Assembly (NCBI GenBank): GCA_002429615.1
Contig: DJAN01000207.1
Location: 1-64,000 of the forward strand
Source of the DNA: Lysobacteraceae bacterium UBA6001
GTDB lineage: Bacteria; Pseudomonadota; Gammaproteobacteria; Xanthomonadales; Xanthomonadaceae
Length of the DNA stretch: 64,000 nt
Direction: 5' to 3'
Part shown: in pieces, positions 2,638 through 62,410 of the stretch
How positions within the stretch are numbered: position 1 is the first letter of the stretch
Layout: each line of letters opens with the position of its first letter
Program-made: the position numbers and the translations under genes
Notes under the pieces: generated by a model
What the model saw: only the letters and a program-made list of their open reading frames with translations
What the model was told of the DNA's origin: nothing
Databases searched by the model: none

Positions 2638-2714
2638 GCACGGCGCGGTAACACGCGCCCGCGCATCCTCGCGCCGCCGGCATCGGCCGGCGGCAACATC
2701 CGAGGAGGCGCACC

Positions 2715-2903
2715 ATGTCATTCCGGCAATTCCCCGCCACCGGTTCCGATGGCGAGTCCTACGTGATCATCGAATTCCGCGAACAAGCGCAGGGCCAGTC
2801 CCACGAAACACCGCGCTACGAGCTGGCCGACGGCCGGCATCTGGTCCGCCAGGGCCAGGACTACGCCACCACCGGCGGCGAACTCCGCCTGTCCACGGCC
2901 TGA
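2715..2903 (+). CDS. Small conserved hypothetical protein
   Basis: A 62-residue acidic protein beginning MSFRQFPATGSDGESYVIIE and preceded by a GGAGG ribosome site (CCGAGGAGGCGCACC before the ATG). Its alternating hydrophobic/charged pattern suggests a small beta-rich domain. No recognised motif. It may be cotranscribed with the ABC transporter, which ends 77 bases upstream. Confidence 0.6.
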   Translation: MSFRQFPATGSDGESYVIIEFREQAQGQSHETPRYELADGRHLVRQGQDYATTGGELRLSTA

Positions 2904-2987
2904 GCCGCACTGGCGATTTCTTCACCACAGCGGGCGCAGGCCCCGCCACGGCTGGCCTGCGCAGGTTTATCCACAGCTTCATTCAAC

Positions 2988-3014
2988 GGTCATCCACATC
3001 CCCTGTGGATGACC
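2988..3014. terminator. Perfect 11-bp inverted repeat between convergent genes
   Basis: GGTCATCCACA (2988-2998) and TGTGGATGACC (3004-3014) form a perfect stem with a 5-base loop between the convergent small gene and tyrA. There is no T-run, so it may be a weak bidirectional terminator or a protein site. The arms contain DnaA-box-like sequence. Confidence 0.5.
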
Positions 3015-3021
3015 GCGCGCG

Positions 3022-4137
3022 TCAGCGCTGCGGCAGCACGCGGCCGATGCCGCTGGCGTCGATCTCCTGCTTGGCGGCGGCCAGCCGCGCCGGATCGCTG
3101 TCCGGCTCGAAGCCCATGCGGAAATGCAGTTCGCCGGCGGGCGTGCGCGAGGAATGGATCGACGACAGGTTGACCCCATGCTGCTCGAACACGTGCAGCA
3201 GCGCGCGCAGCGAGCCGGGCCGATCCTCGGGCAGGTACACACTGGTGGCGAGCGGCTCGGTGAGGTCGGCCAGCAGGTAGCCGACGCGCTCGTAGCTGTA
3301 GTTGCCGGCTTCCAGGCTGGCCGGCGCCAGCGCATCGTGGTTCTCGCGCAGGAACTGGGTGCGGAAGCGCGCACGCGCCGCATCGTCGCCCTGCCGCACC
3401 AGCTCGCGCAGGGTGGCCAGCTGGGCCAGCAGGCGGTCGAGCATCTCCGGCACGTAGGGATTGCCGAACTGGATGTCCTCGTAGATGGTCGGGTTCAACG
3501 ACAGGATGCGCGCGATCACCGCGGTATCCAGCTCGAAGGACGCCGAGCGGAACGGCATCAGCGCCTGCAGCTCGCCGAGCAACGGCGCGTAATCGCGCAG
3601 CACGCCGGCCTGCGCCAGGTGGGTGGCATGCACCATGCCCTGCACCAGCGCCATCACGCGGTCGTGGTGTTCGGGCGTGGCCGGCACGCACTCGGCTTCC
3701 AGCGCGGTGCACAGCTGTTCGACCCACGGGCGCCAGCGCGCCAGCCTGGCCTCGCTGACCACCATCACCCGGCCCTTGAGCGTGGGCGATTTCGGTGGCG
3801 CGGTCATCGGATGCAGGCCGACGACTTCGGCCTGCGAGGCCAGCATCGCCGCGACCGGCGCCTGCTTGATCGAGGTGACATCGAGCCACAGCTGCTCGCG
3901 CTCGCGGCCATCGGCGAGCGCGGCGTAATGGGCGATCAGCGCTGGGGTCTGGCGGATCGGCGCGGAGAACACCAGCACGTCGACGCGGCGCAGCAGTTCG
4001 GCCTCGTCGAGCGAGGCGGGATCGGCCGGATCGTGGCCCCACACCTCCAAGCCCATGCGCTCGCGCAGGAAACGCGCGAGCCAGCGCCCATAGGCGCCCG
4101 CACTCCCGACAATGCCGACAACCGGGCTCGCCGTCAT
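3022..4137 (-). CDS. tyrA: Prephenate dehydrogenase with C-terminal ACT domain
   Basis: A 371-residue protein that would oxidatively decarboxylate prephenate to 4-hydroxyphenylpyruvate in tyrosine synthesis. It has an N-terminal NAD-binding Rossmann segment (VGIVGSAGAYGRWLARFL, about residues 6-23), the prephenate dehydrogenase core with LHPMTAP and SFELDTAVIARIL, and a C-terminal ACT-type regulatory domain (about 295-371, TSVYLPEDRPGSLRALLHVF) that may bind tyrosine. The start at 4137 is chosen because it overlaps the pdxY stop (ATGA) and gives a normal N-terminus; an upstream in-frame extension runs through pdxY. Confidence 0.9.
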   Translation of the reverse strand: MTASPVVGIVGSAGAYGRWLARFLRERMGLEVWGHDPADPASLDEAELLRRVDVLVFSAPIRQTPALIAHYAALADGREREQLWLDVTSIKQAPVAAMLASQAEVVGLHPMTAPPKSPTLKGRVMVVSEARLARWRPWVEQLCTALEAECVPATPEHHDRVMALVQGMVHATHLAQAGVLRDYAPLLGELQALMPFRSASFELDTAVIARILSLNPTIYEDIQFGNPYVPEMLDRLLAQLATLRELVRQGDDAARARFRTQFLRENHDALAPASLEAGNYSYERVGYLLADLTEPLATSVYLPEDRPGSLRALLHVFEQHGVNLSSIHSSRTPAGELHFRMGFEPDSDPARLAAAKQEIDASGIGRVLPQR

Positions 4138-5042
4138 GCCAGACGCTCTGCGGGGAAGCGATCGGCCGGCGACAGCGCCGCGGGCGCGGCGGCGAGGACA
4201 TCGAACTCCTCGAAGCCAGCGGCGAGCGTCGCCTCCAGCGCGGTGTGCACGCCGGCCAGCGCACGGCTGACGGCGACCTCGAACGGCGTATCGCGCAGCA
4301 GGAAGCCGAGCAGCAGTGCCATCAGCACATCGCCGGTGCCGGCCACGTCCACCGGCAGGTGCGGCGTGACCCAGCGGAACACCGCGTCGCGGCTGACCGC
4401 CAGCGTCACCAGTTCGCCCGGCGCACCGGCCACGCTGTGCGCCAGCACCCACTGCGGGCCGCGTTCGAGCAGCACGCGCGCGGCGGCGATGGCGTCATCC
4501 TGGGCCAGGCTGGGCAGGCCGGTGAGACGCCCGAGTTCAAACGCGTTCGGCGTGACCAGCCACGCCCGCGGCAGCAGCCGTTCGGCGAAGACACGTTCCA
4601 GCCCGGCTTCGACATAGGGGCCGGTATGGGTGTCGCCGATGACCGGATCCAGGCAGTAGCGCATCTGCGGCGCGCCGGCCTGCTCGCGTTCGAGCCAATC
4701 GGCGAAGACCTCGCCATTGGCGGTGCTGCCGAAATAGCCGGAGACCAGCATGCGCGCGCGTGCCGGCAGGCCGCGTTCGCTGGCGCCGAGCAGCAGGTCG
4801 GCCAGCCAGTCCGAAGGCAGCACGCGGCCGCGCAGGGTGCTGTAGAACGGCGCGTTGCTCAGCAGCGTGGTGGGCACTTCGGCCACGCGCAGGCCAAGGG
4901 CACGCAGCGGCGGGACGGCGGCGCTGTTGCCGGCATGGCCGTAGACCAGCTGCGACTGCACCGAGATGACATCGACCGGGACCGGCCCGTCAGGGCGCTG
5001 GCGACGGCCGTGGACCAGATGACTTTCTGTTGAGGTGTTCAT
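4134..5042 (-). CDS. pdxY: Pyridoxal kinase
   Basis: A 302-residue PfkB/ribokinase-superfamily enzyme that phosphorylates pyridoxal to pyridoxal 5'-phosphate. Visible features are the PdxY-like VISVQSQLVYGHAGNSAAV segment near the N-terminus, a CLDPVIGD segment, TPNAFELGRLTG, and the anion-hole/catalytic GTGD motif near residue 228. It is cotranscribed with and overlaps tyrA. The ATG at 5042 is chosen; the in-frame upstream extension is non-protein-like and enters the repeat region. Confidence 0.9.
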   Translation of the reverse strand: MNTSTESHLVHGRRQRPDGPVPVDVISVQSQLVYGHAGNSAAVPPLRALGLRVAEVPTTLLSNAPFYSTLRGRVLPSDWLADLLLGASERGLPARARMLVSGYFGSTANGEVFADWLEREQAGAPQMRYCLDPVIGDTHTGPYVEAGLERVFAERLLPRAWLVTPNAFELGRLTGLPSLAQDDAIAAARVLLERGPQWVLAHSVAGAPGELVTLAVSRDAVFRWVTPHLPVDVAGTGDVLMALLLGFLLRDTPFEVAVSRALAGVHTALEATLAAGFEEFDVLAAAPAALSPADRFPAERLA

Positions 5043-5149
5043 GGTTGTCCATTCTAGGACCGGGGGCTGGGTTGGGTTCGATGCTTTCTGATGGATCTTT
5101 TTTGGCGCTTCGGTTTGTGTCGCGCGGCGGCCGGGCGGGGGGCGGCATC

Positions 5150-5215
5150 GGGGGACGCTAAAAGCCGCATCCCTGCGTAGCTCGAAGGGCGACATCCATG
5201 TCGCCCTACGCCCCC
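5150..5215 (+). repeat. REP-like element, copy 1
   Basis: A 66-bp sequence containing the 20-base palindrome GGGCGACATCCATGTCGCCC at 5187-5206, flanked by GCCGCATCC and CTACGCCCCC. It is repeated in inverted orientation at 5386-5451 with only a few mismatches, as expected for REP/BIME-type intergenic elements. Confidence 0.7.
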
Positions 5216-5385
5216 GATACCGCCCCCCGCCCGACCACCCGACAGATCACGTGTTCGCGGAACGAAGATCAAAAGCCGCCCACCCCACTCCATTCCATTC
5301 CCCCATGGGTGTCCTCGCCGCGGCTCCACGCTTTTCGTTCCGCCTGGGAAGGGATGATGAGGGGCGTCTGGAGGGGTGTTCTGGC

Positions 5386-5451
5386 GGGGGCGTAGGGCGA
5401 CATGGATGTCGCCCTTCGAGCCCCGCATGGATGCGGCTGTTGGCGTCCCCC
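5386..5451 (-). repeat. REP-like element, copy 2 (inverted)
   Basis: Inverted partner of the element at 5150-5215, with the palindrome GGGCGACATGGATGTCGCCC and the same flanks. The two copies are separated by about 170 bp, the layout of a BIME (paired inverted REPs). Confidence 0.7.
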
Positions 5452-5517
5452 GCCAGAACACCCCTCCGGACGCCGCGCGATGGCAACGAAAGCGCCCCGA
5501 CCAAACCAGAAGCCCCC

Positions 5518-5550
5518 AAAAAAAAGGCCGCCATGAAAAAGGCGGCCTTT
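5518..5550 (-). terminator. Rho-independent terminator of dnaJ
   Basis: On the minus strand a 10-bp stem (AAAGGCCGCC with GGCGGCCTTT, 8-base loop) is followed by a run of eight T. It lies 23 bases past the dnaJ stop and ends the heat-shock cluster. Confidence 0.9.
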
Positions 5551-5572
5551 CGCAAAAAAAAGCAGGATCAGA

Positions 5573-6694
5573 TCAGGAAGTCATCCGATCCCAGAACCCC
5601 TTCACCCCGTCCATGAAAGTCGCGGACTTCGGCGAATGCTTGCGTGCCTCCTCGCCAGAGAAGGTCGCCTCGAACTGCTCCAGCAGCTTGCGCTGCTCGG
5701 CGGTGAGATTGACCGGCGTCTCCACCACCACCCGGCAGTAGAGGTCGCCCGGATTGCGGCTGCGCACCGAACGCACGCCCTTGCCGCGCAGACGGAACAG
5801 CTTGCCGGTCTGGGTCTCGGCCGGGATGCGGATTTCCGCCTCACCGCCCAGGGTGGCCACGCGGATGCTGTCGCCCAGTGCCGCCTGGGTGATGCGGATC
5901 GGCACCTCGCAGTGCAGGTCGTCGCCATCGCGGCGGAAGATATCGTGCTCGCGCACGCGCACTTCCACGTACAGATCACCCGGCGGCGTACCGGCCGGGC
6001 CGGCCTCGCCTTCGCCCGCCAGGCGGATGCGGTCGCCGTTGTCCACGCCGGCCGGAATCTTCACCGACAGGACCTTCTCGTCCTCGATGCGGCCGGCGCC
6101 GTGGCAGGTCTTGCAGGGATTCTGGATGATCGTGCCGCGCCCGGCGCAATGCGGGCAGCTCTGCTGCATGGCGAAGATGCCACGCTGGATGCGCACCTGG
6201 CCACGGCCCTGGCAGGTGGCGCAGGTCTCGACCTTGCCGTCCTCCGAACCGCTGCCATGACAGGGCTCACACTCGACCAGGGTCGGAATCTCGATGCGCC
6301 GCTCGATGCCGCTGACCGCTTCCTCCAGGTCCAGCTCGATCACGTAGCCGATGTCGGCACCACGACGCGCCGCACGCTGGCCACCGCCGCCAAAGATGTT
6401 GCCGAAGATGTCGCCGAAGATGTCGCCCATGTCCGGGCCACCCGGACCGCCACCGCCGCCCATGCCGTGTTCGAACGCGGCGTGGCCGTGGGCGTCGTAC
6501 ATCCGCCGCTTGTTGCCGTCGGACAGGACCTCGTAGGCCTCCTTGCACTCCTTGAACGAAGCCTCCGCCGCCGCGTCGCCCGGATTGCGGTCGGGGTGGT
6601 ACTTCATCGCGCAGCGGCGATACGCCTTCTTCAGCTCATCGTCGTTGGCGCCACGGGCCACGCCCAGGACTTCGTAGTAATCGCGCTTGCTCAT
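5573..6694 (-). CDS. dnaJ: Chaperone protein DnaJ (Hsp40)
   Basis: A 373-residue type I J-protein that delivers substrates to DnaK and stimulates its ATPase. It has the N-terminal J domain with the HPD motif (KYHPDRNPG, about residues 30-38), a Gly/Phe-rich linker (about 75-120), four CxxCxGxG zinc motifs ([32 protein letters not shown]) and a C-terminal substrate-binding region. Its length is normal for the family. It follows dnaK with a 96-bp gap that contains a stable hairpin. Confidence 0.97.
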
Positions 6695-6739
6695 GGAGGA
6701 CTGCAGGAACCTGTGTAGGAATGACGGGAGTCAGATGAG

Positions 6740-6773
6740 GCGAAGGAGCGATGCCGGGGCACCGCTCCTTCGC
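6740..6773 (-). promoter_or_regulatory. Intercistronic hairpin between dnaK and dnaJ
   Basis: A perfect 11-bp stem (GCGAAGGAGCG / CGCTCCTTCGC) with a 12-base loop lies between dnaK and dnaJ and has no T-run. Such hairpins often act as partial terminators or mRNA 3'-end stabilisers, which would let DnaK be made in excess over DnaJ (inference). Confidence 0.6.
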
Positions 6774-6790
6774 TTTATCGGCAGGACGAC

Positions 6791-8716
6791 TTACTTCTTG
6801 TCGTCCTTGACCTCGGTGAACTCGGCGTCCACCACGTCGTCACCCGCGCGCAACTGCGCACCGGCGTCCGCGCCCGGGCCGCCAGCACCGCCCTGCTCGG
6901 CCGCCGCCGCGGCGGCGTACAGCGACTGACCGGCCTCTTCCAGCGCCTTGGTCTTGGCCTCGATCTGGCCCTTGTCGTCGCCCTTCATCGCCGTTTCCAG
7001 GTCCGACAGCGCCGATTCGACGCGGCCGATCACATCGCCGCCGACCTTGCTGCCGTGCTCGGTGATGGCGGTGCGGGTGGCGTGGATCAGGCCGTCGGCC
7101 TGGTTGCGCGCCTGCACCAGCTCATGGAACTTCTTGTCTTCCTCGCGGTGCGCCTCGGCGTCGGCGACCATCCGCTGGATCTCGTCGTCCGACAGACCCG
7201 AACCGGCCTTGATCTCGACCTTCTGTTCCTTGTTGGTCTTCTTGTCCTTGGCCGACACGTGCAGGATGCCGTTGGCGTCGATGTCGAAGGACACCTCCAC
7301 CTGCGGCAGGCCACGCGGCGCCGGCTCGATGCCGGACAGGTCGAACTTGGCCAGCGACTTGTTGAAACGGGCCTGCTCGCGCTCGCCCTGCAGCACGTGC
7401 ACGGTCACCGCCGACTGGTTGTCCTCGGCGGTGGAGAACACCTGCGAGGCCTTGGTCGGGATGGTGGTGTTCTTCTCGATGATCTTGGTGAACACGCCGC
7501 CCATGGTCTCGATGCCCAGCGACAGCGGGGTCACGTCCAGCAGCAGCACGTCCTTGACGTCACCGGCCAGCACGCCGCCCTGGATCGCCGCGCCCAGCGC
7601 GACCGCTTCGTCCGGGTTGACGTCCTTGCGCGGTTCCTTGCCGAAGAACTCGGCCACCGCCTGCTGCACCTTCGGCATGCGGGTCTGGCCGCCGACCAGG
7701 ATCACCTCGTTGACGTCGCTGGCACGCAGGCCGGCGTCGTTCAGCGCGGTGCGGCACGGCTCGATCGACTTGCGGATCAGGTCCTCGACCAAGGCTTCCA
7801 GCTTGGCGCGGGTCAGCTTGATGTTGAGGTGCTTCGGACCGGAGGCGTCGGCGGTGACGTACGGCAGGTTGACTTCGGTCTGCTGCGAGGACGACAGCTC
7901 GATCTTGGCGCGCTCGGCGGCATCCTTCAGGCGCTGCAGGGCCAGCGGGTCCTTGCGCAGGTCGATGCCCTGGTCCTTCTGGAATTCCTCGACGAGGTAG
8001 TCGATGACGCGCTTGTCGAAGTCCTCGCCACCCAGGAAGGTGTCGCCATTGGTGGCCAGCACCTCGAACTGCTTCTCGCCGTCGACCGAGGCGATCTCGA
8101 TGATCGACACGTCGAAGGTGCCGCCGCCCAGGTCGTACACGGCGATCTTGCGATCGGCGCCGTCCTTGTCCAGGCCATAGGCCAGGGCCGCGGCGGTCGG
8201 TTCGTTGATGATGCGCTTGACGTCCAGGCCGGCGATGCGGCCGGCGTCCTTGGTCGCCTGGCGCTGGCTGTCGTTGAAGTAGGCCGGCACGGTGATGACC
8301 GCCTCGGTGACCGTCTCGCCCAGGAAGGCTTCGGCGGTCTTCTTCATCTTCTCCAGCACCTGCGCGGAGATCTCCTGCGGCGCCAGCTTCTTGCCATCGG
8401 CAGTGGACACCCAGGCGTCGCCGTTGTCATGCGCGACGATGCCGTACGGCACCAGGTCCAGGTCCTTCTGCACTTCGGCGTCGGTGAACTTGCGGCCGAT
8501 CAGGCGCTTCACCGCGTAGAAGGTGTTCTTGGGGTTGGTGACGGCCTGGCGCTTGGCCGAGGCGCCCACCAGCACTTCGCCGTCCTTGGTGTAGGCGACG
8601 ATCGAGGGCGTGGTGCGGTCGCCCTCGGAATTCTCGATGACGCGGGCCTTGCCGCCATCCATGATCGCCACGCAGGAATTGGTGGTGCCCAGGTCGATAC
8701 CGATGATCTTGCCCAT
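6791..8716 (-). CDS. dnaK: Chaperone protein DnaK (Hsp70)
   Basis: A 641-residue Hsp70. The ATPase domain begins [20 protein letters not shown] and includes the phosphate loop [14 protein letters not shown], followed by the [11 protein letters not shown] linker and the substrate-binding domain. The C-terminus is Ala/Gly-rich and ends [12 protein letters not shown]. The start at 8716 is set by homology and an AGGAG site ten bases upstream; the frame extends 29 codons further through non-coding leader. A sigma-32-type promoter lies 65-92 bases upstream. Confidence 0.98.
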
Positions 8717-8780
8717 GAGGGGATGACTCCTGAAAAGATGCTTGTTCGTTTGGCCGGCGTGATGCCGGCGGCTGGTTCGG

Positions 8781-8808
8781 ATGTGGGGATGGCCGCAAAC
8801 CATTCAAG
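8781..8808 (-). promoter_or_regulatory. Sigma-32-type heat-shock promoter of dnaK
   Basis: On the minus strand CTTGAA (8808-8803), 14 bases, then CCCCACAT (8788-8781). This closely matches the sigma-32 consensus CTTGAAA-N11-16-CCCCATNT and lies upstream of dnaK. Confidence 0.75.
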
Positions 8809-8874
8809 CCATCGCCGCGAAACTGCGTTCCGTCCGGCGCCGGCCACGTTCAGACGCGGCCGCGCCGGCGCGGG

Positions 8875-9393
8875 TCAATCGTGCTTGGCCACCACCACCA
8901 GCGCGGGACGCAGCAGGCGGTCGTTGAGCAGGTAGCCCTTCTGGAACACCTGGGCCACATGGCCCGGGGCCACGGCGGCCACGTCGACCTGGCTGATCGC
9001 CTGGTGGTGTTCCGGATTGAACGGCTGGCCGGTCGGGTCCAGCAGGGTCAGCCCGTTGTCGGCGGCGACCTTCAGCAGCTGCTTGTAGGTCATCTCCAGG
9101 CCGTCGCGCAGCGGGCTAGGCTCGGCGCCGGCCGCGGACAGGCCGGCGTCCAGGCTGTCGAACACGGGGAGCAGTTCGCCCAGCAGCTTTTCGTTGGCGA
9201 AGCGGCGCGCCTGCTCGACATCACGGGCGATGCGCTTGCGCTGGTTCTCCAGGTCGGCGCGTTCGCGCAGGGCGTCGGCCTTGACCAGGGCGACCTCGCT
9301 GCGCAGCGACTCCAGCTCCTCGTGGAGCGGGTCGGTGGGCGCGGCGGCCTGCTGGGGGTTCTCGGAATCGAATTCGGGGTGGTCTTGGTTCAT
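8875..9393 (-). CDS. grpE: Nucleotide exchange factor GrpE
   Basis: A 172-residue DnaK nucleotide-exchange factor. It has a long N-terminal coiled coil (residues ~20-75, [20 protein letters not shown]) followed by the beta-domain with [28 protein letters not shown]. The start at 9393 (MNQDHPEF) fits GrpE homologues; ATG at 9405 is an alternative. It lies between hrcA and dnaK. Confidence 0.95.
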
Positions 9394-9437
9394 TTGCGCG
9401 TCCATGGGCAGGCGACACCCCGCCCCTGCCACGCCCT

Positions 9438-9464
9438 ATGTGGGCGCCCACGGATTGTTTCAAG
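9438..9464 (-). promoter_or_regulatory. Sigma-32-type promoter of grpE
   Basis: On the minus strand a perfect CTTGAAA (9464-9458), a 12-base spacer, then GCCCACAT (9445-9438). It sits between hrcA and grpE and would allow grpE-dnaK-dnaJ induction independently of hrcA. Confidence 0.7.
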
Positions 9465-9518
9465 CGCTTGATCGGGACAATCGTCGCAATCTATCGCCGG
9501 ACCGGCCCGGCGCCGGCC

Positions 9519-10568
9519 TCAGCCGGCCGGGGGTTCCAGCGCGGCGCCGAGCTCACGGGCGGCGGTCTGCACCAGCGGGATCACCCGCTCGTAGGCCATG
9601 CGCTTGGGGCCGATGACCCCGAGCACGCCCAGCACCCGCCCCTGCGCGGCATACGGCGCGGTGACCAGCGAGACGTCGCCCAGCGGCAGCATCCCGGTCT
9701 CCTCGCCGATGAAGATGCGCACCCCCGGCGCCTGGATGGTGCGCTCCAGCAGCTGCAGGATCTCGCGCTTGCTGGCGAAGGCCTCGAACAGCTCGCGCAG
9801 GCGGTCCAGGTCGGCCAGGTCCTGCACCCCCATCAGCCGGGTCTGCCCGGCCAGCACGATGTCCTCGGCCGCGGGCGGCACCAGCACCTCGCCGGCCAGC
9901 TCCACGCTGTGCGCCAGCAGCTGCTCCATCTCGTCCTTGGCGGTGCGCAGCTCGCGCATCAGGCTGGCGCGGATGTCGACCAAGGCGCGCCCGGCGAAGT
10001 GGGCATTGAGGTAGTTGGCGACCCGCTCCAGCTCGGCCGGTTCGTAGGGCCGGCGCGGCTCGATCACCCGGTTCTGGACCTCGTTGTCGGCGAACACCAG
10101 GATCGCCAGCACCCGGCGCGCGTCGAGGGCGACGAAATCGATATGGCGGAAGGCGAACTGCTCGCGCCGCGGCGCGCTGACCACGCCAACGAAGTGGCTC
10201 ATCGCCGAGAGCATTTCCGAGGCGCTGCCGAGCAGCGACTGGGTGCCGGCGCCGCTGGCCAGCTCGGTGCGCAGGCGCCGCACCTCCTCCTCCGCCGGCG
10301 GCTGCATCTGCACCAGGCTGTCGACGAACACCCGGTAGCCGTGCGCGGTGGGAATGCGCCCGGCCGAGGTATGCGGCGAGGCCAGCAGGCCCAGGTCCTC
10401 CAGGTCCGCCAGCACGTTGCGGATGGTGGCCGCGCTGATGTCCAGGCCGGCGTGCTGGGCCAGGGTCCTGGACCCGACCGGTTCGCCATCATGGATATAG
10501 CGCGAGATCAGCGTGCGCAGCAGGTGCCGGGCGCGGGGATCGAGCGAGGGCGTGGAAGACGGGCGCAT
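9519..10568 (-). CDS. hrcA: Heat-inducible transcription repressor HrcA
   Basis: A 349-residue HrcA. An N-terminal winged helix (residues ~10-75, RHLLRTLISRYIHDGEPVGSRTLA then ATIRNVLADLEDLGLL) is followed by a GAF-like dimerisation domain (GVVSAPRREQ) and the C-terminal GVLGVIGPKRMAYERVIPLV motif. Elsewhere it represses genes with CIRCE operators. No CIRCE (TTAGCACTC-N9-GAGTGCTAA) is seen upstream of this cluster, so its target is probably elsewhere, such as groESL. It is divergent from recN. Confidence 0.96.
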   Translation of the reverse strand: MRPSSTPSLDPRARHLLRTLISRYIHDGEPVGSRTLAQHAGLDISAATIRNVLADLEDLGLLASPHTSAGRIPTAHGYRVFVDSLVQMQPPAEEEVRRLRTELASGAGTQSLLGSASEMLSAMSHFVGVVSAPRREQFAFRHIDFVALDARRVLAILVFADNEVQNRVIEPRRPYEPAELERVANYLNAHFAGRALVDIRASLMRELRTAKDEMEQLLAHSVELAGEVLVPPAAEDIVLAGQTRLMGVQDLADLDRLRELFEAFASKREILQLLERTIQAPGVRIFIGEETGMLPLGDVSLVTAPYAAQGRVLGVLGVIGPKRMAYERVIPLVQTAARELGAALEPPAG

Positions 10569-14866: not shown

Positions 14867-15219
14867 GGGGGTGCACTGGTTTCGACGGGGGTCGCGAAGT
14901 CGCTTGGCGCATGCCGAGGGGGCAGCTTTCCTCGTAAATCCAGCCGCAAACTTATAGTTGCCAACGACGACAACTACGCTCTGGCCGCTTAAGGCCTAAG
15001 CCCCGAAATCGCTTGTGTCCGTGCTCGCGACGTAGGGTCATCATCACGGAACCGCCTGTGGTGGCTGCCTGTCAGCCATGGGTTAAATAAAGCGGGCTGG
15101 CTCCGGGATGCGCTTCGCACATCGTGCTGTTCCGGGGTGAGATTCAACGGTGAGCTAAGCATGTAGTGCCGGGGATGGAGAGCCTTCGGACGGCGGTTCG
15201 ATTCCGCCCACCTCCACCA
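14867..15219 (+). ncRNA. ssrA: Transfer-messenger RNA (tmRNA, SsrA)
   Basis: A 353-base tmRNA. The 5' end GGGGGTGCACTGGTTTCGACGG pairs through GGGGGTG with the 3' acceptor strand CACCTCC, which is followed by ACCA at 15216-15219. The T-arm GGTTCGATTCC is visible. The reading frame starts with the resume codon GCC at 14960 and encodes the proteolysis tag ANDDNYALAA with TAA at 14990. It rescues stalled ribosomes with SmpB. Its 3' end directly abuts the integrase region, so it is the likely attachment site. Confidence 0.97.
15186..15219 (+). other. Putative attL: 3' end of ssrA
   Basis: The T-arm and acceptor end of ssrA (GGTTCGATTCCGCCCACC...CCA) lie next to the integrase gene. tmRNA 3' ends are frequent targets of P4-type integrases, which regenerate the gene on insertion. 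No second copy was found in this window, so attR is unplaced and the core limits are inferred. Confidence 0.5.
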
Positions 15220-53396: not shown

Positions 53397-53710
53397 GTCA
53401 CCTTCCCCATGGCTGCGATGGCCGCTTCTCTACGATGGATGGCGGCCCGCAGGCCCGTGGCTGCATACATGCGCTCGGTGTTGCTCAGGCGCTGATCCGA
53501 CATCAGAGCGCGGGCCTTGTTGTAATCGCGGTCTGCCGCCAGCAGCTCCTGCACGGCGGCGAGCGCACGATCCATCCTCTGTGCAGCCTTCAGGGAGCCC
53601 GCCCGAATCCGCCGGCGGGAGTCGCGCAGGATGGCCAGCGCACTGGAGTCCTGTGCCAGCGCTTCGCGCGTCTGCCTGCTCTCGCGCAGGTCAACCTTGT
53701 CGCCGGTCAC
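53393..53710 (-). CDS. Small phage hypothetical protein
   Basis: A 105-residue protein from GTG 53710, overlapping the CII-like stop (GTGA). Helical throughout (LKAAQRMDRALAAVQELLAA, MYAATGLRAAIHRREAAIAA). Operon position between CII and O suggests early accessory function. Confidence 0.6.
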   Translation of the reverse strand: MTGDKVDLRESRQTREALAQDSSALAILRDSRRRIRAGSLKAAQRMDRALAAVQELLAADRDYNKARALMSDQRLSNTERMYAATGLRAAIHRREAAIAAMGKVT

Positions 53711-54210
53711 GCCGTCACCCCGCGCTTTCCCGTTACCGCGCGCAGGCGCGCCAGCAGGTTGATCGTCGCTTCCATCTGCGCAGCGCCGGCGGCGCTGATG
53801 GCCCTCATCTCGCTCTCGGTGATGAGGCCATCGGCCAATGCTTCCCGCATCGCCTGGGCGAAGGCGCCCTGCATCGAAGCGCTCTCCAGCATCGCGCCCA
53901 TGACACTGCCGGAGGCCTCGGCGCCCATGCGCTGGAGCGTGAATCCGTGCTCGGCGGCAAGGCACTGCAGCATCAGGTAGTCCGACGTGAGCCCCATGAC
54001 CTCGCTCGCCTCGACCAGCGTCAGGTGATGCGTATGGGTGTTCGGGTTGACCTTGCTGCCCAGGACCGCGGGGGACATCCCCTTCGGATTGCCCTCATCG
54101 TCGAAGACGACCTTCCCTTCAGCGTCCCTGCGGATCAACCGAACTGCGAGGGCAGCAACCCCTCCCGGGTAGCTGTGGACGGTGTGGTGGGCGGCGTCAA
54201 TTACGTTCAT
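53707..54210 (-). CDS. CII-like phage regulatory protein (CP76/YmfL type)
   Basis: A 167-residue protein starting MNVIDAAHHTVHSYPGGVAA. The pattern AVLGSKVNPNTHTHHLTLVE plus ASEVMGLTSDYLMLQCLAAE matches the phage CII/CP76 regulatory family. It sits downstream of cro and upstream of O, the lambda cII position, so it may govern establishment of lysogeny. Confidence 0.78.
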   Translation of the reverse strand: MNVIDAAHHTVHSYPGGVAALAVRLIRRDAEGKVVFDDEGNPKGMSPAVLGSKVNPNTHTHHLTLVEASEVMGLTSDYLMLQCLAAEHGFTLQRMGAEASGSVMGAMLESASMQGAFAQAMREALADGLITESEMRAISAAGAAQMEATINLLARLRAVTGKRGVTA

Positions 54211-54264
54211 GGCCTGGTTTCCTAAACGTGGTTCGGTACGAAGTCGCCCGGCAGGCTGTGCGCC

Positions 54265-54405
54265 ATGGACGAACTGCAGCGAAGGATCAAAGCGGCAAGG
54301 AAGCGAGCCCCGAACGTCGTGACGATCGTTCGGGTCGAAGGGAACGTGTTCGGGTTGCGGTGGGCGGACGGCCAGATGCACGTCCGCCTGCTGCGGAAAG
54401 GCTGA
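54265..54405 (+). CDS. Small basic protein on the opposite strand between cro and cII
   Basis: A 46-residue ORF: MDELQRRIKAARKRAPNVVT, ending MHVRLLRKG. Coding-like with a basic helix and a beta hairpin, but without a clear ribosome site. Oriented against the early operon. Confidence 0.4.
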   Translation: MDELQRRIKAARKRAPNVVTIVRVEGNVFGLRWADGQMHVRLLRKG

Positions 54406-54749: not shown

Positions 54750-54861
54750 TGCGGTACATCGCTGTTGAAGGCGAAGCGCACCGGGCTGCCAGCTCCGTGC
54801 GCGACGGCTTCAACAGCCAGTCGCGCAGCCACAGCCGCGGGTTCCACCGGTCAGGCAGCAT
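54688..54861 (-). CDS. Small phage protein after cro
   Basis: A 57-residue protein, MLPDRWNPRLWLRDWLLKPS to PAGLELPRAASE. ATG 54861 lies within the cro end (8-base overlap), typical for this operon. It overlaps the plus-strand gene by 62 bases, so one of the two may be spurious. Confidence 0.45.
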   Translation of the reverse strand: MLPDRWNPRLWLRDWLLKPSRTELAARCASPSTAMYRIKLGEDGRPAGLELPRAASE

Positions 54862-55087
54862 CGGCCACCCCCTGCCCCTCGGCTGGGGCGCTGCCAAACA
54901 CGTCGGGACGCAGCTCATGGCGGGAGACGCCAGTCGCGGCCTCGATGGCCAGAGCCCGCCCCGCGGGCACCCTGCCCCGGATCTTCCATTCGCTGATGGA
55001 AGCCGACTTGATCCCAAGAATCTGGGCGAGCCCCTGCTGGGAGCCCGCGGCGACGATTGCTTTCTGCAACGGCGAGTTGGTGTCCAT
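54851..55087 (-). CDS. Cro/YdaS-like helix-turn-helix regulator
   Basis: A 78-residue protein from ATG 55087: MDTNSPLQKAIVAAGSQQGL, then AQILGIKSASISEWKIRGRV (helix-turn-helix), then LAIEAATGVSRHELRPDVFG. YdaS/Cro type. It is divergent from CI across 75 bp with operators. Its promoter -10 ends only about seven bases before this ATG, so the mRNA should be leaderless. Confidence 0.82.
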   Translation of the reverse strand: MDTNSPLQKAIVAAGSQQGLAQILGIKSASISEWKIRGRVPAGRALAIEAATGVSRHELRPDVFGSAPAEGQGVADAA

Positions 55088-55094
55088 GAGGCGC

Positions 55095-55123
55095 ATATTA
55101 GGCTAGGCCTAATCTGTTTTCAA
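55095..55123 (-). promoter_or_regulatory. PR-like promoter of cro
   Basis: On the minus strand TTGAAA (55123-55118), 17-base spacer, TAATAT (55100-55095). Operator O1 fills the spacer, giving direct repression by CI/Cro. Confidence 0.75.
55097..55113. promoter_or_regulatory. CI/Cro operator O1
   Basis: Perfect palindrome ATTAGGC-TAG-GCCTAAT, 17 bp, in the spacer of the cro promoter. Confidence 0.8.
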
Positions 55124-55154: not shown

Positions 55155-55171
55155 TTTAGGCCATGCCTAAG
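55155..55171. promoter_or_regulatory. CI/Cro operator O2 over the CI start
   Basis: TTTAGGC-CAT-GCCTAAG, with 12 of 14 arm positions as in O1. It contains the CI ATG (55163), suggesting autorepression. Confidence 0.65.
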
Positions 55172-55861
55172 AGATCACCCGACAAGGACGCCCCGGAGTT
55201 CGGCAAGCGGCTGGTAGACCTGCTTGCCCGCCATGGCATACCGAGGCGAGGGGCAGGCGCGTACCTGCAGCGCCAGTACAGAGTCTCCAACGTGACCGCC
55301 AACGACTGGCTCAATGGGCAATTCCGTCCAGAGATCGACACAGCAAGACGAATCGCTACTGACCACGGGACAACCTTCGACGAGTTGTACTTCGGTTCTC
55401 CGGCTGCGGTCGCTGCCGACGACGGGTACGCGGACGTCACCGGCTACTCCCAGGCCGCTGGGCTCGGAACCGGCGCAGAGGCTCAGGAATATGCCGAAAC
55501 GCACAGCCTGAAATTCAAGTCAAATAGCCTGCGACGGAGAGGGATTCTGGGCCGACCGCTGGCCGTCTACTACGGCCGCGGCGACAGTATGGAGCCGACC
55601 ATCAAGAACGGCGATGCGATCCTCTTCGACACATCCGACACCAAGGTGGTGGACGGCGCGCTCTACCTGGTGCAGGTCCATGGCGCGGCGAACCCGGAGT
55701 ATTTCGTGAAGCGAGCAACGGTGCTCGACGGCATCGTGTTCTTCGCCAGCGACAATCCTCAGGGAGACCACCACTGGCGCAAGCCGCGCCGCATGGACGC
55801 AAAGCGCGAGCCGATCACGATTGTTGGCCGGGTTCACTGGATCGGCGGCTGGGCAGATTGA
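55163..55861 (+). CDS. CI-type phage repressor, S24/LexA-like
   Basis: A 232-residue repressor. An N-terminal DNA-binding domain (residues ~10-75, KRLVDLLARHGIPRRGAGAY ... VSNVTANDWLNGQFRP) is joined to an S24 self-cleavage domain with cleavage site Ala99-Gly100 (SQAAGLG), nucleophile Ser142 (GDSMEPT) and Lys183 (FVKRA). RecA-dependent induction is expected. It is first in a plus-strand operon with three further genes expressed in lysogens. Confidence 0.92.
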   Translation: MPKRSPDKDAPEFGKRLVDLLARHGIPRRGAGAYLQRQYRVSNVTANDWLNGQFRPEIDTARRIATDHGTTFDELYFGSPAAVAADDGYADVTGYSQAAGLGTGAEAQEYAETHSLKFKSNSLRRRGILGRPLAVYYGRGDSMEPTIKNGDAILFDTSDTKVVDGALYLVQVHGAANPEYFVKRATVLDGIVFFASDNPQGDHHWRKPRRMDAKREPITIVGRVHWIGGWAD

Positions 55862-55870
55862 GGACTATGC

Positions 55871-56383
55871 ATGGCACGCAGGAAGCCGCCAGATCCAGAG
55901 ACCGTTCGCGAGCTGAGGGACATGCTAGCTGCGCCCAAGGCTTGGGTCGCAGCTGGCGAGATTACTTGGGTGGATGCTGGCGGCAGGCCGAAGGGATACA
56001 AGTTCAGGGCGGCGCTCTCGGTCGGTGGTCACACGCCGGACACCCTGTACGTCGACGCCTACTACAAGCAATCCAGCATCGAAGGTGTCCCGGACAAGCT
56101 TTCTCTCAGCCTGTTCTACCGGAACGAGCGGATCTTGGGTCTCGACGAGAATGGCGCCTCACACCATCGAAATGACGTAGGAGTGGGGCGCGAATACTTC
56201 CTTAAACGTGTCGATCACCCTCATTTGCATACCATCAGCGATGACGCAATATGCGGTTATGCTGAGCCACTGGAGCGAGCCGATTTCACGGCGCACTGGG
56301 ATACTTTCCTAGCTCACGCCGGAATAGACAACGCTCCCGCCTTCCGACTTCCGCCAGGTCAGCGCGAACTACTCCTACGATGA
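55871..56383 (+). CDS. DUF6978-like protein, possible immunity module part A
   Basis: A 170-residue protein (MARRKPPDPETVRELRDMLA). The middle has RAALSVGGHTPDTLYVDAYY, then SLFYRNERILGLDENGASHH, and the end PHLHTISDDAIC. The D.NG..HHN-like and PH.H signatures resemble DUF6978 (recalled, not checked). Starts 9 bases after CI and overlaps the next gene (ATGA). Function unknown. Confidence 0.65.
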   Translation: MARRKPPDPETVRELRDMLAAPKAWVAAGEITWVDAGGRPKGYKFRAALSVGGHTPDTLYVDAYYKQSSIEGVPDKLSLSLFYRNERILGLDENGASHHRNDVGVGREYFLKRVDHPHLHTISDDAICGYAEPLERADFTAHWDTFLAHAGIDNAPAFRLPPGQRELLLR

Positions 56384-57132
56384 ACCACGACGCGCTAGCA
56401 CACGCCATCTGCGGGCAATACACCGCGATCAGCGCCGGATCGGGGTATATAGAGTCGCCCCTGGCTTTCCCGGTCGACGGGACGCTCATCGGCGCGTATG
56501 TAATGGAAGTTGGCCCCGGCCGTTTCGTGGTCACCGACGACGGCGACGTGGCGTTCCACGTCGCATCGGCTGGTGCTGACATCACACCGTCGCGCCTGAA
56601 GACCTACCGCTCCATTGCCGAAGAGCACGGCCTTTCGCTGAACGAAGAGGGCGTGATCAGCGCGACATGCGGGGATGCAGAGCTGACCGGAGTCCTGAGC
56701 CGATACCTGCAAGCGGCGTCAGCCATCGCCACCAAGGGACTGAAGCATCGCCCGCGCGACGAAGAACGGTTTACCCGGATCGTGGGTGCCGCACTGGCGA
56801 ACCGCTATGGCAATCGACTCCGCAAGCGGGTGGAGGTCACAGGTCTCAGCGGGCACCAGATCCGGTTTCCGTTCGCCCTGGACATCGGGCGCGAGCGACG
56901 CGCCTACATCCAACCCATCGCTGCTGACTCCGGCACCATCCAGTGGAAGTCTGTATATGAGGCCGGCGGCAAGTTCAAGGACCTGCGCGCGGCGAGACGA
57001 GACGCTCCCGTCGTTGCTGTTCTTGAGGCATCGCGGGACGTCGACCGCGCTAGCGGGTTCTTCGCTGACACGGCCGCCGTGCTGGTCTACCAAGGCGGCG
57101 CCATCGACTTGGACTTCGCCATAGCCGCCTAA
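56380..57132 (+). CDS. DUF1828/DUF1829-like protein, possible immunity module part B
   Basis: A 250-residue protein. The N-terminal half has SPLAFPVDGTLIGAYVMEVG and RFVVTDDGDVAFHVASAGAD (DUF1828 pattern); the C-terminal half has KRVEVTGLSGHQIRFPFALD and ASRDVDRASGFFADTAAVLV (DUF1829 pattern). No membrane segment. It overlaps the preceding gene and is read with CI, so it should be present in lysogens. Biochemical role unknown. Confidence 0.75.
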   Translation: MNHDALAHAICGQYTAISAGSGYIESPLAFPVDGTLIGAYVMEVGPGRFVVTDDGDVAFHVASAGADITPSRLKTYRSIAEEHGLSLNEEGVISATCGDAELTGVLSRYLQAASAIATKGLKHRPRDEERFTRIVGAALANRYGNRLRKRVEVTGLSGHQIRFPFALDIGRERRAYIQPIAADSGTIQWKSVYEAGGKFKDLRAARRDAPVVAVLEASRDVDRASGFFADTAAVLVYQGGAIDLDFAIAA

Positions 57133-57177
57133 CGCCCTGCCCCGCTTCGGCGAGGTCCTCGCTATCTGGAGACCAGG

Positions 57178-57564
57178 ATGTCCCGTTACTCCCCTGCCCC
57201 CTTTGCGCTTGCTGCCGTCGGTGCGATCGCCCCGCTGAACCTCACCGGGTGCGGGAAGATCCAAGAAATGCGGTTCGAGCACGCAGCTAAGGCCAAGATC
57301 GTGCACGACGCGATAGACCCGGAATCTGTGCAATTCAGAGATACGCACGCTTCCCCGAGCAAGAAGTATGAAGGTACCTTTGCCCTCTGCGGTGAAGCGA
57401 ATGCCAAGAACCGCATGGGTGGCTTCACTGGCTGGACTCGATTCATCGTGTCCGGTTTCGCAGACAACCACGAAGCCGGCGTCATCAGCCTGACCTTTGA
57501 CGACGGCCGGGGAGCCTTCTTCGATCGCCAGTGGGCTGAAAGCTGCAGTCCCAAGAATTCCTAG
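57178..57564 (+). CDS. Small lipoprotein, possible superinfection-exclusion factor
   Basis: A 128-residue protein. A hydrophobic N-terminal signal (FALAAVGAIAPLNLTGC) ends in a lipobox-like Cys25. The mature part has IVHDAIDPESVQFRDTHASP and ALCGEANAKNRMGGFTGWTR, a pattern seen in small periplasmic proteins of many proteobacteria. Last gene of the CI operon (45-bp gap). Role in exclusion is inferred from place only. Confidence 0.65.
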   Translation: MSRYSPAPFALAAVGAIAPLNLTGCGKIQEMRFEHAAKAKIVHDAIDPESVQFRDTHASPSKKYEGTFALCGEANAKNRMGGFTGWTRFIVSGFADNHEAGVISLTFDDGRGAFFDRQWAESCSPKNS

Positions 57565-57596
57565 CTGCGGCTTGACCGATCCCTGTTCAGAAAAAT

Positions 57597-57613
57597 ATTA
57601 GGCTAGACCTATT
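57597..57613. promoter_or_regulatory. CI operator O3
   Basis: ATTAGGC-TAG-ACCTATT keeps 12 of 14 arm positions of O1. It overlaps a possible -10 (TATTAG at 57596) paired with TTGACC at 57572. Confidence 0.6.
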
Positions 57614-57696: not shown

Positions 57697-58092
57697 ATGT
57701 CCGCAGCACCCCGCTTCACCCAGACCCATGGCGGCGTCCTGACCGTCATCGACGCGACCACCGGCTTGGAGTGGTCCGCCCAGCCTGTCGCCCGCGACGC
57801 CACCCACGAAGCCGCCAGCAAAGCCTGCGCTGACTGCCGCCTCGGCGGCCATACCGACTGGCGCCTGCCGACCCGGCAGGAGCTGCTGTCCATCTTCGAT
57901 CTGAGCCGCCACGAGCCGGCCATCGACACCGACGCCTTCCCTGACTTCCCGTCCACGTGGTTCTGGACGAGCGACCTGTGCGCCTGGTCTTCGGCGTCCG
58001 CGTGGGGCGTCTTTTTCTACTACGGCAGCGTCGGCAGCCTCCACCGCGGCAGCGGCGGGTTCGCGTTGGCCGTGCGTCGTGCCGGTCAGTAA
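57697..58092 (+). CDS. DUF1566 (C-type-lectin-like) protein
   Basis: A 131-residue DUF1566 protein: IDATTGLEWSAQPVARDATH, CRLGGHTDWRLPTRQELLSI, and WFWTSDLCAWSSASAWGVFF. The fold is shared with lectin-like and FGE-type domains. First gene behind the second CI-controlled promoter, so made on induction. No signal peptide. Partner unknown. Confidence 0.85.
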   Translation: MSAAPRFTQTHGGVLTVIDATTGLEWSAQPVARDATHEAASKACADCRLGGHTDWRLPTRQELLSIFDLSRHEPAIDTDAFPDFPSTWFWTSDLCAWSSASAWGVFFYYGSVGSLHRGSGGFALAVRRAGQ

Positions 58093-60439: not shown

Positions 60440-60594
60440 GCGACATCCACCTGAATGACCGGCTGGCGGCCCTCGACTGGGCGGTGGCACGCGCCCGGGA
60501 GGCGGCCCAAACCGACGACCTCGTGCGCCTCAACGTGCTGCCGGCCCTGCAGGCCGAGCGCGACTTTGTCCAGAAGGTGGTCCGCAATGGCTGA
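60436..60594 (+). CDS. Small phage hypothetical protein
   Basis: A 52-residue protein: MSDIHLNDRLAALDWAVARA, ending ERDFVQKVVRNG. Helical and acidic. ATGA overlap upstream; the methyltransferase ATG lies within its end. Confidence 0.55.
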   Translation: MSDIHLNDRLAALDWAVARAREAAQTDDLVRLNVLPALQAERDFVQKVVRNG

Positions 60595-62410
60595 CGGCTC
60601 GAGCGAGTTCAATTTCCCGCCGCCGCAGCTGTCTCGGCTGCGCCCGGGCGAGATCGTGGTCGACCTGTTCGCCGGCGGCGGCGGGGCTAGCGAGGCGCTG
60701 AAGCAGGCGCTGGGCATCGACCCGGCGCTGGCCTATAACCACGACGAATGGGCGATCGGGATGCACGCGGCGAACCACCCGTTGACGATCCACCACCGGG
60801 AGGACATCTGGCACGCGGATCCGCGCCGCGATGTCGCCGGGCGCCCGGTCGGCTGGTTTCATGCCAGCCCCGACTGCACCCACTTCTCCCAGGCGAAGGG
60901 CGGCCAGCCTCGCAGTCGAAAGACCCGGGCGCTGTCGTGGGTGGTGCTGAAGTGGGTCGGCCAGCTGGCGAAGGTGGGCAACGCGCCGCGCATCGTCAGC
61001 CTGGAGAACGTCTGGCAGATCCTGACGTGGGGACCGTTGGTCGCGAAGCGCGACCGCGCCACCGGCCGCGTGCTGAAGATGGATGGCACCGTCGCGGTCG
61101 TTGGCGAGCGCGTGCCGGTGGAGAACCAGCAGCTGGTTCCGAACAGGAAGCGCAGCGGGCGCACGTGGCGCCAGTTCGTCGCGGCCCTGCGCGGCTGCGG
61201 CTATGAGGTGGAGTGGCGGAAGCTGGTAGCCAGCGACTACGGTGCCGGCACCAGCCGGGAGCGCCTGTTTCTCCTCGCGCGGCGCGATGGCGAGCCCATC
61301 ACTTGGCCGGAGCCGACGCACGGTGCCGCGCCTGGTCAGCTGCCGCGCGTTAGCGCCGCGGACTGCCTGGACTTCTCCCTGCCATGCCCTTCCATCTTCG
61401 AACGCAAGCGCCCTTTGGCCGATGCCACCATGCGTCGCATCGCGAAGGGCGTCGTGCGGCACGTCATCCAGGCCGCCGAGCCGTTCTTCATCACGGAGCA
61501 CGCCAATGCCAGCACCCAGCGCACCTGGTCAGCGGGCGAGCCGCTGCGCACCCAGTGCGCGGGCGTGAAGGGCGGCCACTTCTCCGTTGTGGCGCCGGTG
61601 CTCGCCGGCGTGGGTGGCCGTGCGGGCCAAACCGAGCCGCGTCCCGGCGATGAGCCGCTGTACACCATCACTACCAAGGCAGATACCGCAGTGATCGCAC
61701 CGGTGCTGGTGCAGACCGGCTACGGCGAGGCACCCGGCCAGGCTCCGCGCGCCCTCGATCTGCAGAAGCCACTGGGAACGATTGTCGCCGGAGGCGTGAA
61801 GCATGCGGCCGTGGCGGCGTTCCTTGAGCAGGCCAATGGTGGTTTCTACGAAGGTGGTGGCCGGGACGCGCGCGCGCCGATGAGCACGATCACCGCCGCC
61901 GGCAGCCAGCAGCAGCTGGTCACCGCCCACATCGCGACGCTGCGCAACAACACGGTCGGCGCACCCGCTGATGAGCCGCTGGCGACGATCGCGGCTGGGG
62001 GCGAGCATCACGCCGTGGTGGAGTGCCATCTCAGCCCCAACCAGGAGGCTGGCGCGCTGCGCGTGGCGGCCTTCCTCGTGAACTACTACGGAAACGGCAC
62101 TGCTCTCGACATCCGCGATCCGCTCGACACCGTCACCACCCGCGACCGCATGGCGTTGGTAACGGTGATGGTTCGCGGCACGCCCTACGTGATCGTGGAC
62201 ATCGGCTTGCGCATGCTGAAGCCGCACGAGCTATACCGCGCGCAGGGCTTCCCCGCCGACTACGTGATTGACCGGACCGCGGACGGCAGGCCGATCAGCA
62301 CGACCGCCGCCGTACGCATGGTCGGCAACAGCGTCAGCCCACCGCCGCTGCGCGCATTGGCCCTGGCCAATCTGGATGCGGCCGCTGCGCCGTTCGCGGT
62401 AGCCGCATGA
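60587..62410 (+). CDS. DNA cytosine-5 methyltransferase with internal repeats
   Basis: A 607-residue C5 methyltransferase: motif I DLFAGGGG (26-33), motif IV SPDCTHFSQAKGG with Cys97, motif VI ENV (140-142), motif VIII TSRERLFLLA and motif X MVGNSVSPPPLRALA near the end. Between VIII and X lie about six degenerate copies of a P-L/M-x-T-I/V...H/L-V-V unit. It likely protects phage DNA from host restriction. Last gene of the rightward operon. Confidence 0.92.
   Translation: MADGSSEFNFPPPQLSRLRPGEIVVDLFAGGGGASEALKQALGIDPALAYNHDEWAIGMHAANHPLTIHHREDIWHADPRRDVAGRPVGWFHASPDCTHFSQAKGGQPRSRKTRALSWVVLKWVGQLAKVGNAPRIVSLENVWQILTWGPLVAKRDRATGRVLKMDGTVAVVGERVPVENQQLVPNRKRSGRTWRQFVAALRGCGYEVEWRKLVASDYGAGTSRERLFLLARRDGEPITWPEPTHGAAPGQLPRVSAADCLDFSLPCPSIFERKRPLADATMRRIAKGVVRHVIQAAEPFFITEHANASTQRTWSAGEPLRTQCAGVKGGHFSVVAPVLAGVGGRAGQTEPRPGDEPLYTITTKADTAVIAPVLVQTGYGEAPGQAPRALDLQKPLGTIVAGGVKHAAVAAFLEQANGGFYEGGGRDARAPMSTITAAGSQQQLVTAHIATLRNNTVGAPADEPLATIAAGGEHHAVVECHLSPNQEAGALRVAAFLVNYYGNGTALDIRDPLDTVTTRDRMALVTVMVRGTPYVIVDIGLRMLKPHELYRAQGFPADYVIDRTADGRPISTTAAVRMVGNSVSPPPLRALALANLDAAAAPFAVAA

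Follow-up and report, generated by a model that had tools for sequence, protein, structure and literature searches.

The subject of this study is a pair of overlapping genes, designated P2 and P3, that lies directly behind a CI-like repressor gene in a 64,000-nucleotide stretch (the window) of Lysobacteraceae bacterium UBA6001 (contig DJAN01000207.1, positions 1 to 64,000). Sequence comparisons indicated that P2 and P3 are a real unit, and the same kind of pair occurs in two habitats, namely, downstream of the repressor in temperate phages that are unrelated to one another and within or close to loci of restriction, BREX, and Gabija systems. Weighing these locations, which are what speaks for defense, we lean slightly toward reading P2-P3 as a lysogen-expressed two-protein module for defense or phage (superinfection) exclusion. 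The window holds a lambda-type immunity region, in which a CII-like gene and a Cro/YdaS-like gene on the minus strand are followed by CI, P2, P3, and the small lipobox gene P4 on the plus strand (Table 1). An open reading frame check of the window confirmed all coordinates of these genes in the initial annotation: P2 (170 amino acids) starts 9 bases after the end of CI, and P3 (250 amino acids) starts inside the end of P2, with an ATGA overlap at 56380 to 56383. The plus strand from 55861 to 57564 was scanned for terminator-like sites, and none were found; judging from this arrangement, CI, P2, and P3 may well be made from one transcript.

The P2-P3 pair behind phage repressors

Relatives of the pair were retrieved through family-alignment scans of viral contigs and a phage collection. 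Both genes, the ATGA overlap, and a P3 open in frame were present in 12 of the 12 non-self phage or viral records in which both genes were readable (L002, L003, L005, L007 to L010, and L013 to L017), representing ∼9 sequence types given that L007 to L009 are near copies, as are L013 and L014. L006 was left out of this count and of the palindrome count below because its contig stops shortly after P2, and the source record of L003 annotates the P3 start three bases later. A repressor gene was recognized upstream of the pair in 10 of the 12 records on the basis of annotation, phmmer, and Peptidase_S24 matches (weakly for L014), with none recognized near L007 and L008; in 4 of these 10 (L002, L009, L016, and L017), a single gene stands between repressor and pair. 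The initial annotation had regarded P2 and P3 as one two-gene unit and had named rare co-occurrence of their homologs as the result that would speak against it; co-occurrence was frequent, both in these records and at the distant loci described below, and the unit stands.

The relatives shared 39 to 80% identity with the window P2 and 47 to 87% with the window P3, the nearest named relatives of P2 being from Xanthomonas and those of P3 including Stenotrophomonas. The ratio of nonsynonymous to synonymous substitution rates (dN/dS) was 0.06 to 0.26 in the 8 pairwise comparisons, out of 10, for which it was computable; the comparisons covered both genes and several loci. Because relatives are found at 39 to 87% identity with dN/dS values in this range, the pair is more than a chance juxtaposition. 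Moreover, the pair of the type carried by Escherichia phage ev207 (L003) was detected at ≥99% identity in 239 of 5426 complete Escherichia coli genomes, always on the chromosome, and covered ≥80% of the query in 237 of them, including that of strain Nissle 1917; being this common in E. coli, it makes the exclusion idea testable at once in laboratory strains.

Repressors and pairs did not always diverge in step. L013 and L014 carry nearly identical pairs behind repressors that are only 35% identical, and the P2 genes of L005 and L006 are 94% identical behind repressors that are only 63% identical. Since near-identical pairs or P2 genes follow divergent repressors, recombination between CI and the pair is suggested for both cases.

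Operator-like palindromes and the rexAB slot

The palindrome TTAGGCNNNGCCTAA was matched with at most one mismatch three times in the 64 kb and with at most two mismatches four times, and all four sites flank the cassette. Among 200 simulated sequences with the same first-order composition as the window, the corresponding means were 0.05 (highest, 1) and 0.79 (highest, 4). Repressor-type operators appear to flank the window cassette on both sides, and the palindromes are plausible CI binding sites. In lambda, OR and OL flank cI-rexA-rexB; with palindromes both left of CI and right of P4, the window genes therefore appear to occupy the slot filled by rexAB in lambda. The rexAB slot, between cI and N, is also where the pair is found in E. 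coli Nissle 1917 and phage ev207.

Words left of CI were repeated right of the pair above all 100 shuffles in 7 of 12 loci (the window, L003, L005, L013, L015, L017, and L030); the words common to both flanks of L030 may be coding sequence. No such recurrence above shuffles was seen in the other 5 loci (L002, L009, L010, L014, and L016). The operator-like words vary among phages, while the slot of the pair stays constant. This constancy bears on the alternative that P2 and P3 are regulators of the lysogeny switch, tuning CI or its operators instead of acting as defense proteins. Such a role would suit a pair that sits within an operator-bracketed immunity region, and precedents have been reported: RexA biases the lambda switch (PMC11077077), and the Hex protein of phage 434 protects its repressor (PMC3564112). 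We nevertheless consider a switch regulator improbable, given that the operator-like words change between phages and the pair stays and that restriction, BREX, or Gabija-type genes lie near 15 of 26 distant relatives.

Distant relatives near restriction, BREX, and Gabija genes

These neighborhoods provide the second line of evidence for the defense reading. DUF1828, the family matched by P3, was present in 11 of 398 genomes in a phylum sample and in 13 of 369 genomes in a class sample, self included in both. The 26 non-self distant loci analyzed comprised 9 from the phylum sample (self match and the cut match L043 dropped), 14 from the class sample (self match and L071, at a contig edge, dropped), and 3 from a further search. 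With genes called mechanically, a co-directional open frame ending ≤80 bases from the start of the DUF1828 gene was found at 25 of the 26 loci, the partner in L051 being broken. This partner frame measured 122 to 189 amino acids in 23 loci and was longer as called in L080 and L082, whose frames probably start further downstream; its end overlapped the DUF1828 start by 4 bases at 10 of the 25 loci.

A restriction, BREX, or Gabija-type gene was detected near the pair at 12 of the 26 distant loci and in none of 20 control regions (leave-one-out phmmer; one-sided Fisher P = 2.5e-4), with 2 of the 12 matches (L078 and L083) being weak by this method. The searches covered the 7 to 12.5 kb fetched per locus, with the locus's own queries excluded, and control regions of 12 kb at arbitrary places; the genomes in which the 26 loci lie supplied 17 of these regions, and two genomes carrying nearer relatives (G195 and G096) supplied 3. 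PADLOC scans of 20 chosen proteins from the 26 loci added L051, L075, and L079, bringing the loci with defense-gene neighbors to 15 and leaving 11 with none recognized. The enrichment looks real, and its size is rough because the controls were few and the queries were drawn from the case set.

According to PADLOC models, L049 is flanked by HsdS and HsdR and L052 by HsdM and HsdR, and the DUF1828 gene of L051 has BrxC on one side and PglX on the other within a BREX locus (2214 to 10130). L054 and L055 adjoin type IIG enzymes, L056 is near HsdR and PDC-S18, L075 adjoins a type I enzyme and SoFic, and L079 adjoins GajA and GajB of Gabija, while the pair of L083 is directly followed by type III methylase and restriction subunit genes. 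The neighborhood survey that the initial annotation had proposed thus found the pair recurring both beside repressors and near restriction, BREX, or Gabija genes. As for the defense or exclusion function claimed there, the position behind CI and the neighbors of many relatives fit it, and both are arguments from location.

Repeated embedding in restriction and BREX loci, as at L049, L051, and L083, might also be expected of an anti-restriction or antidefense module that protects the prophage or restrains the neighboring restriction system. This explanation seems very unlikely on general grounds: it is hard to see why a defense locus would carry an inhibitor of itself, and an inhibitor expressed in the lysogen would expose the host to other phages.

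Two further observations can be added. At both L083 and L084, the relative of the pair, whose partner gene is linked to P2 by profile comparison at 99.7% probability, is followed immediately by a pair of type III restriction-modification genes. At L089, on an S. epidermidis plasmid with prophage-like genes, the DUF1828 gene lies just before a site-specific integrase gene, and a P2-like partner was not recognized.

Protein families, conserved residues, and predicted structures

Family searches supported the labels of the initial annotation in part. P3 scored 29.2 bits against DUF1828 (PF08861), above the Pfam cutoff of 22, and P2 scored 17.3 bits against DUF6978 (PF22398), below the cutoff of 29.6. 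DUF1829 (PF08862), the other domain suggested for P3, was not matched in the window P3 up to an E value of 10 or in genome G000 at an E value of 0.001, though DUF1828 and DUF1829 are joined in a single reading frame in the relative L076.

The partner at L052, which stands beside a type I system, is a clear DUF6978 protein (E = 2.1e-44), and the P2 profile was linked to the profile of its group (L049, L052, and L076) at 76% probability. Besides the L083 and L084 partners, the P2 family profile was linked to L003 (97.6%), the L081 group (94%), and the L053 group (85%), the last of which was linked onward to L055 and L056 at 99%; three unrelated proteins used as controls scored ≤0.1%. The relationship between P2 and DUF6978 is thus suggested through intermediates only. 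Three partner groups (L085 and L086; L048, L059, and L088; L057 and L058), comprising seven loci, were unlinked by profile comparison and were placed by position, and an HxH motif occurs in five of these seven partners. P3 families were linked at 91 to 100% probability for most groups, with lower values for L055/L056 (34%) and L085/L086 (46%), both of which were reached through the L053 group.

In alignments of 33 pairs, Lys23 of P2 was conserved in 32 rows and His118 and His120 in 31 each. Besides the window, the rows come from 25 distant loci and 7 loci of viruses or phages, with some near relatives left aside and L051 absent on account of its broken P2. Structure searches with the P2 model (predicted local distance difference test [pLDDT] score, 91.6) returned no clear PDB match and no recognized toxin fold. 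The P3 model (pLDDT, 91.8) was predicted to combine an N-terminal secretion-chaperone-like domain with a C-terminal nuclease-fold domain. The modeled N-terminal domain resembles class I type III secretion chaperone-like proteins (SycT, CesT, and ExsC; DR_1245) in fold only, and the modeled C-terminal domain resembles Can2, AF1548, Bax1, and XisH, whose fold we take to be that of the PD-(D/E)XK nucleases. Active nucleases of this fold have an Asp on strand 2 and an (E/Q)-x-K motif on strand 3. The window P3 does not show this usual motif, having Pro164 in the place of the Asp and no Lys after Gln178; the strand 2 Asp is present in 22 of the 33 aligned P3 proteins.

P2 was broken and P3 intact at four loci, with the P2 homology split over two frames in L032, L046, and L047 and degraded in L051, and the end of P2 in L087 looks altered by eye. 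Such a pattern would be predicted were P2 the costly member of the pair. A broken P3 was not encountered at any of the loci examined, all of which were found via the DUF1828 half of P3, and the contrast is only suggestive. Because of the broken P2 genes beside intact P3 genes, the conservation of the Lys and HxH residues in P2, and the loss of the catalytic motif from P3, we tentatively propose, with considerable doubt, that P2 is the effector and P3 its partner or restrainer.

A plain toxin-antitoxin (addiction) pair, with P2 as toxin and P3 as antitoxin, would share much of this evidence. Such a pair would be kept because its loss kills or slows the cell, and any anti-phage effect would be secondary or absent. 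Two short overlapping genes occurring together fit this model, as do the four loci with a broken P2 and an intact P3. Moreover, the validated two-gene defense system DS-6/HipAD contains a HipA-type kinase whose proposed antitoxin-like partner is a DUF1829 protein (PMC13092281), and L076 joins DUF1828 to DUF1829. That system resembles the present pair in combining a DUF1829 protein with an effector and differs in that the effector is a HipA-type kinase and the partner has DUF3037 rather than DUF1828. However, P2 has no recognized toxin fold, and the link with restriction and repressor loci exceeds what plain addiction needs, which makes this explanation unlikely in our view.

Relation to known systems

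The pairing is already listed in PADLOC-DB as the computational defense candidate PDC-M24, consisting of PDC-M24A and PDC-M24B. PDC-M24B was matched by the P3 proteins of the window, L002, L003, and L015 and not by that of L013. PDC-M24A was not matched by the window P2; the partner of L003 matched it with an E value of 4.8e-4 and that of L013 with an E value of 0.034, with no match for L002 and L015. The combination of DUF6978-like and DUF1828 genes as a defense candidate is therefore not wholly undescribed, as the initial annotation had supposed; its statement holds insofar as no paper naming or testing PDC-M24 or giving a mechanism for the pair was found in the open-license literature, where the papers found on DUF1828 gave no function and DUF6978 turned up in a mutation table.

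Among characterized systems, lambda RexA-RexB lies behind CI, is made in lysogens, and excludes phages (PMC11077077), and a RexAB-type system of P. putida downstream of a CI-like repressor also excludes phages (PMC12894663). Like RexAB, P2-P3 consists of two genes that follow CI within the immunity region, both in the window and in the E. coli version between cI and N. It differs in that RexB is a membrane protein: on a simple scale, neither P2 nor P3 has a membrane-helix-grade stretch (highest 19-residue mean hydropathy, 0.74 and 1.37, respectively). RexA is RdgC-like, a fold that P2 or P3 might conceivably share, judging from the structure searches with the two proteins. Accessory genes, rexAB among them, are commonly found between repressor and N, and transcription of bstA, another gene at that site, came from the cI promoter under each of the 17 conditions examined (PMC7067206). 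BstA was later shown to be anti-phage, with cognate self-immunity reported (PMC8585504); it is like P2-P3 as a prophage gene in the repressor-N place and unlike it as a single gene. In addition, a cI gene of Vibrionales has been named a likely defense hotspot (PMC9122126). To these precedents, the present analysis adds the double habitat of the pair, its operator-bracketed position in several phages whose operator-like words differ, an interpretation of P3 as a two-domain protein, and a conserved site in P2. If defensive, P2-P3 would be a movable module linking prophage exclusion to chromosomal defense islands and another occupant of the rexAB/bstA slot, and it may offer an effector without a clear match among solved structures.

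Proposed mechanism

Under the exclusion reading that we favor, the prophage would make P2 and P3 together with CI, on one transcript, from the rexAB slot. P3 might bind P2 via its secretion-chaperone-like N-terminal domain and hold it ready or silent, while its C-terminal nuclease-fold domain, without the usual catalytic motif, could read nucleic acid or a phage product. Infection by another phage would then release or switch on P2, whose conserved site consists of Lys and His-x-His, and P2 would halt that infection, with the cell probably paying a cost. A more elaborate version, which we regard as decidedly speculative, would make P2 the first representative of a new effector fold whose active site consists of Lys plus His-x-His, with P2 being held by a protein that fuses a secretion-chaperone-like domain to a retired nuclease domain. 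In this version, the pair would act as a guard of restriction, BREX, and Gabija systems that fires once a phage has disabled them, and capture into the rex slot would have happened repeatedly in temperate phages, giving the lysogen its own exclusion system.

P4 and other features of the window

The initial annotation had included the lipoprotein P4 as the surface partner of a three-gene exclusion unit. P4 follows P3 on the same strand at a distance of 45 bases, with its L-T-G-C at residues 22 to 25, and signal-peptide or lipobox proteins were seen by eye between CI and the pair in L009, L016, L017, and L059. Only the L017 protein was P4-like, and weakly so (E = 0.0028), in a comparison that covered the other loci except L059. 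By eye, there was no exported-protein gene between CI and the pair in L003, L005, L013, and L015 or directly after the pair in L003 and L005; L015 has an open reading frame with a hydrophobic start ∼190 bases after the pair. Exported proteins thus occur on differing sides of the pair or are missing, and the 10 phage records with weak P4 relatives (E values of 8e-6 to 6e-4) include none of the 7 with P3 relatives. A role for P4 as third component is, on this evidence, highly improbable; P4 is best read as a separate accessory gene, that is, optional cargo.

Table 1. Features of the immunity region in the window
Feature	Position	Strand	Evidence and remarks
CII-like regulator, far side of switch	53707..54312	-	Pfam Phage_CP76, E 1.7e-26; mechanical open reading frame longer
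Cro/YdaS-like regulator, divergent from CI	54851..55096	-	Pfam YdaS_toxin, E 1e-17; Phage_CI_repr, E 1.9e-6; phrog_35
Operator-like palindrome 1, left of CI	55098..55112		Exact match to TTAGGCNNNGCCTAA
Operator-like palindrome 2, overlapping CI start	55156..55170		Exact match to TTAGGCNNNGCCTAA
CI-like repressor, S24 peptidase type	55163..55861	+	Peptidase_S24, E 3.8e-11; PHROG repressor family phrog_4, E 1.9e-27
P2, DUF6978-like, 170 amino acids, in PDC-M24A place; tentatively the effector	55871..56383	+	DUF6978, E 0.0062 (below cutoff); profile links to other partner genes, one a clear DUF6978
P3, DUF1828 protein, 250 amino acids, PDC-M24B-like; tentatively the partner or restrainer	56380..57132	+	DUF1828, E 1.1e-6; PADLOC PDC-M24B, E 3.5e-6; phrog_1960, E 5.3e-25
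P4, small lipobox protein, 128 amino acids; probable optional cargo, outside the conserved unit	57178..57564	+	L-T-G-C; phrog_2320, E 1.3e-15; variable at other loci
Promoter-like site reading away from the cassette	57572..57599	+	Consensus scan only
Operator-like palindrome 3, right of P4	57598..57612		2 mismatches to TTAGGCNNNGCCTAA
Operator-like palindrome 4, right of P4	57623..57637		1 mismatch to TTAGGCNNNGCCTAA

Outside this region, the first gene right of the second operator pair (57697 to 58092) has an Lcl C-terminal domain (Pfam E = 4.2e-27), and a long open frame at 60455 to 62410 looks by eye like a cytosine DNA methyltransferase. A tmRNA gene with the tag ANDDNYALAA was found at 14867 to 15219; tmRNA genes are frequent phage attachment sites.
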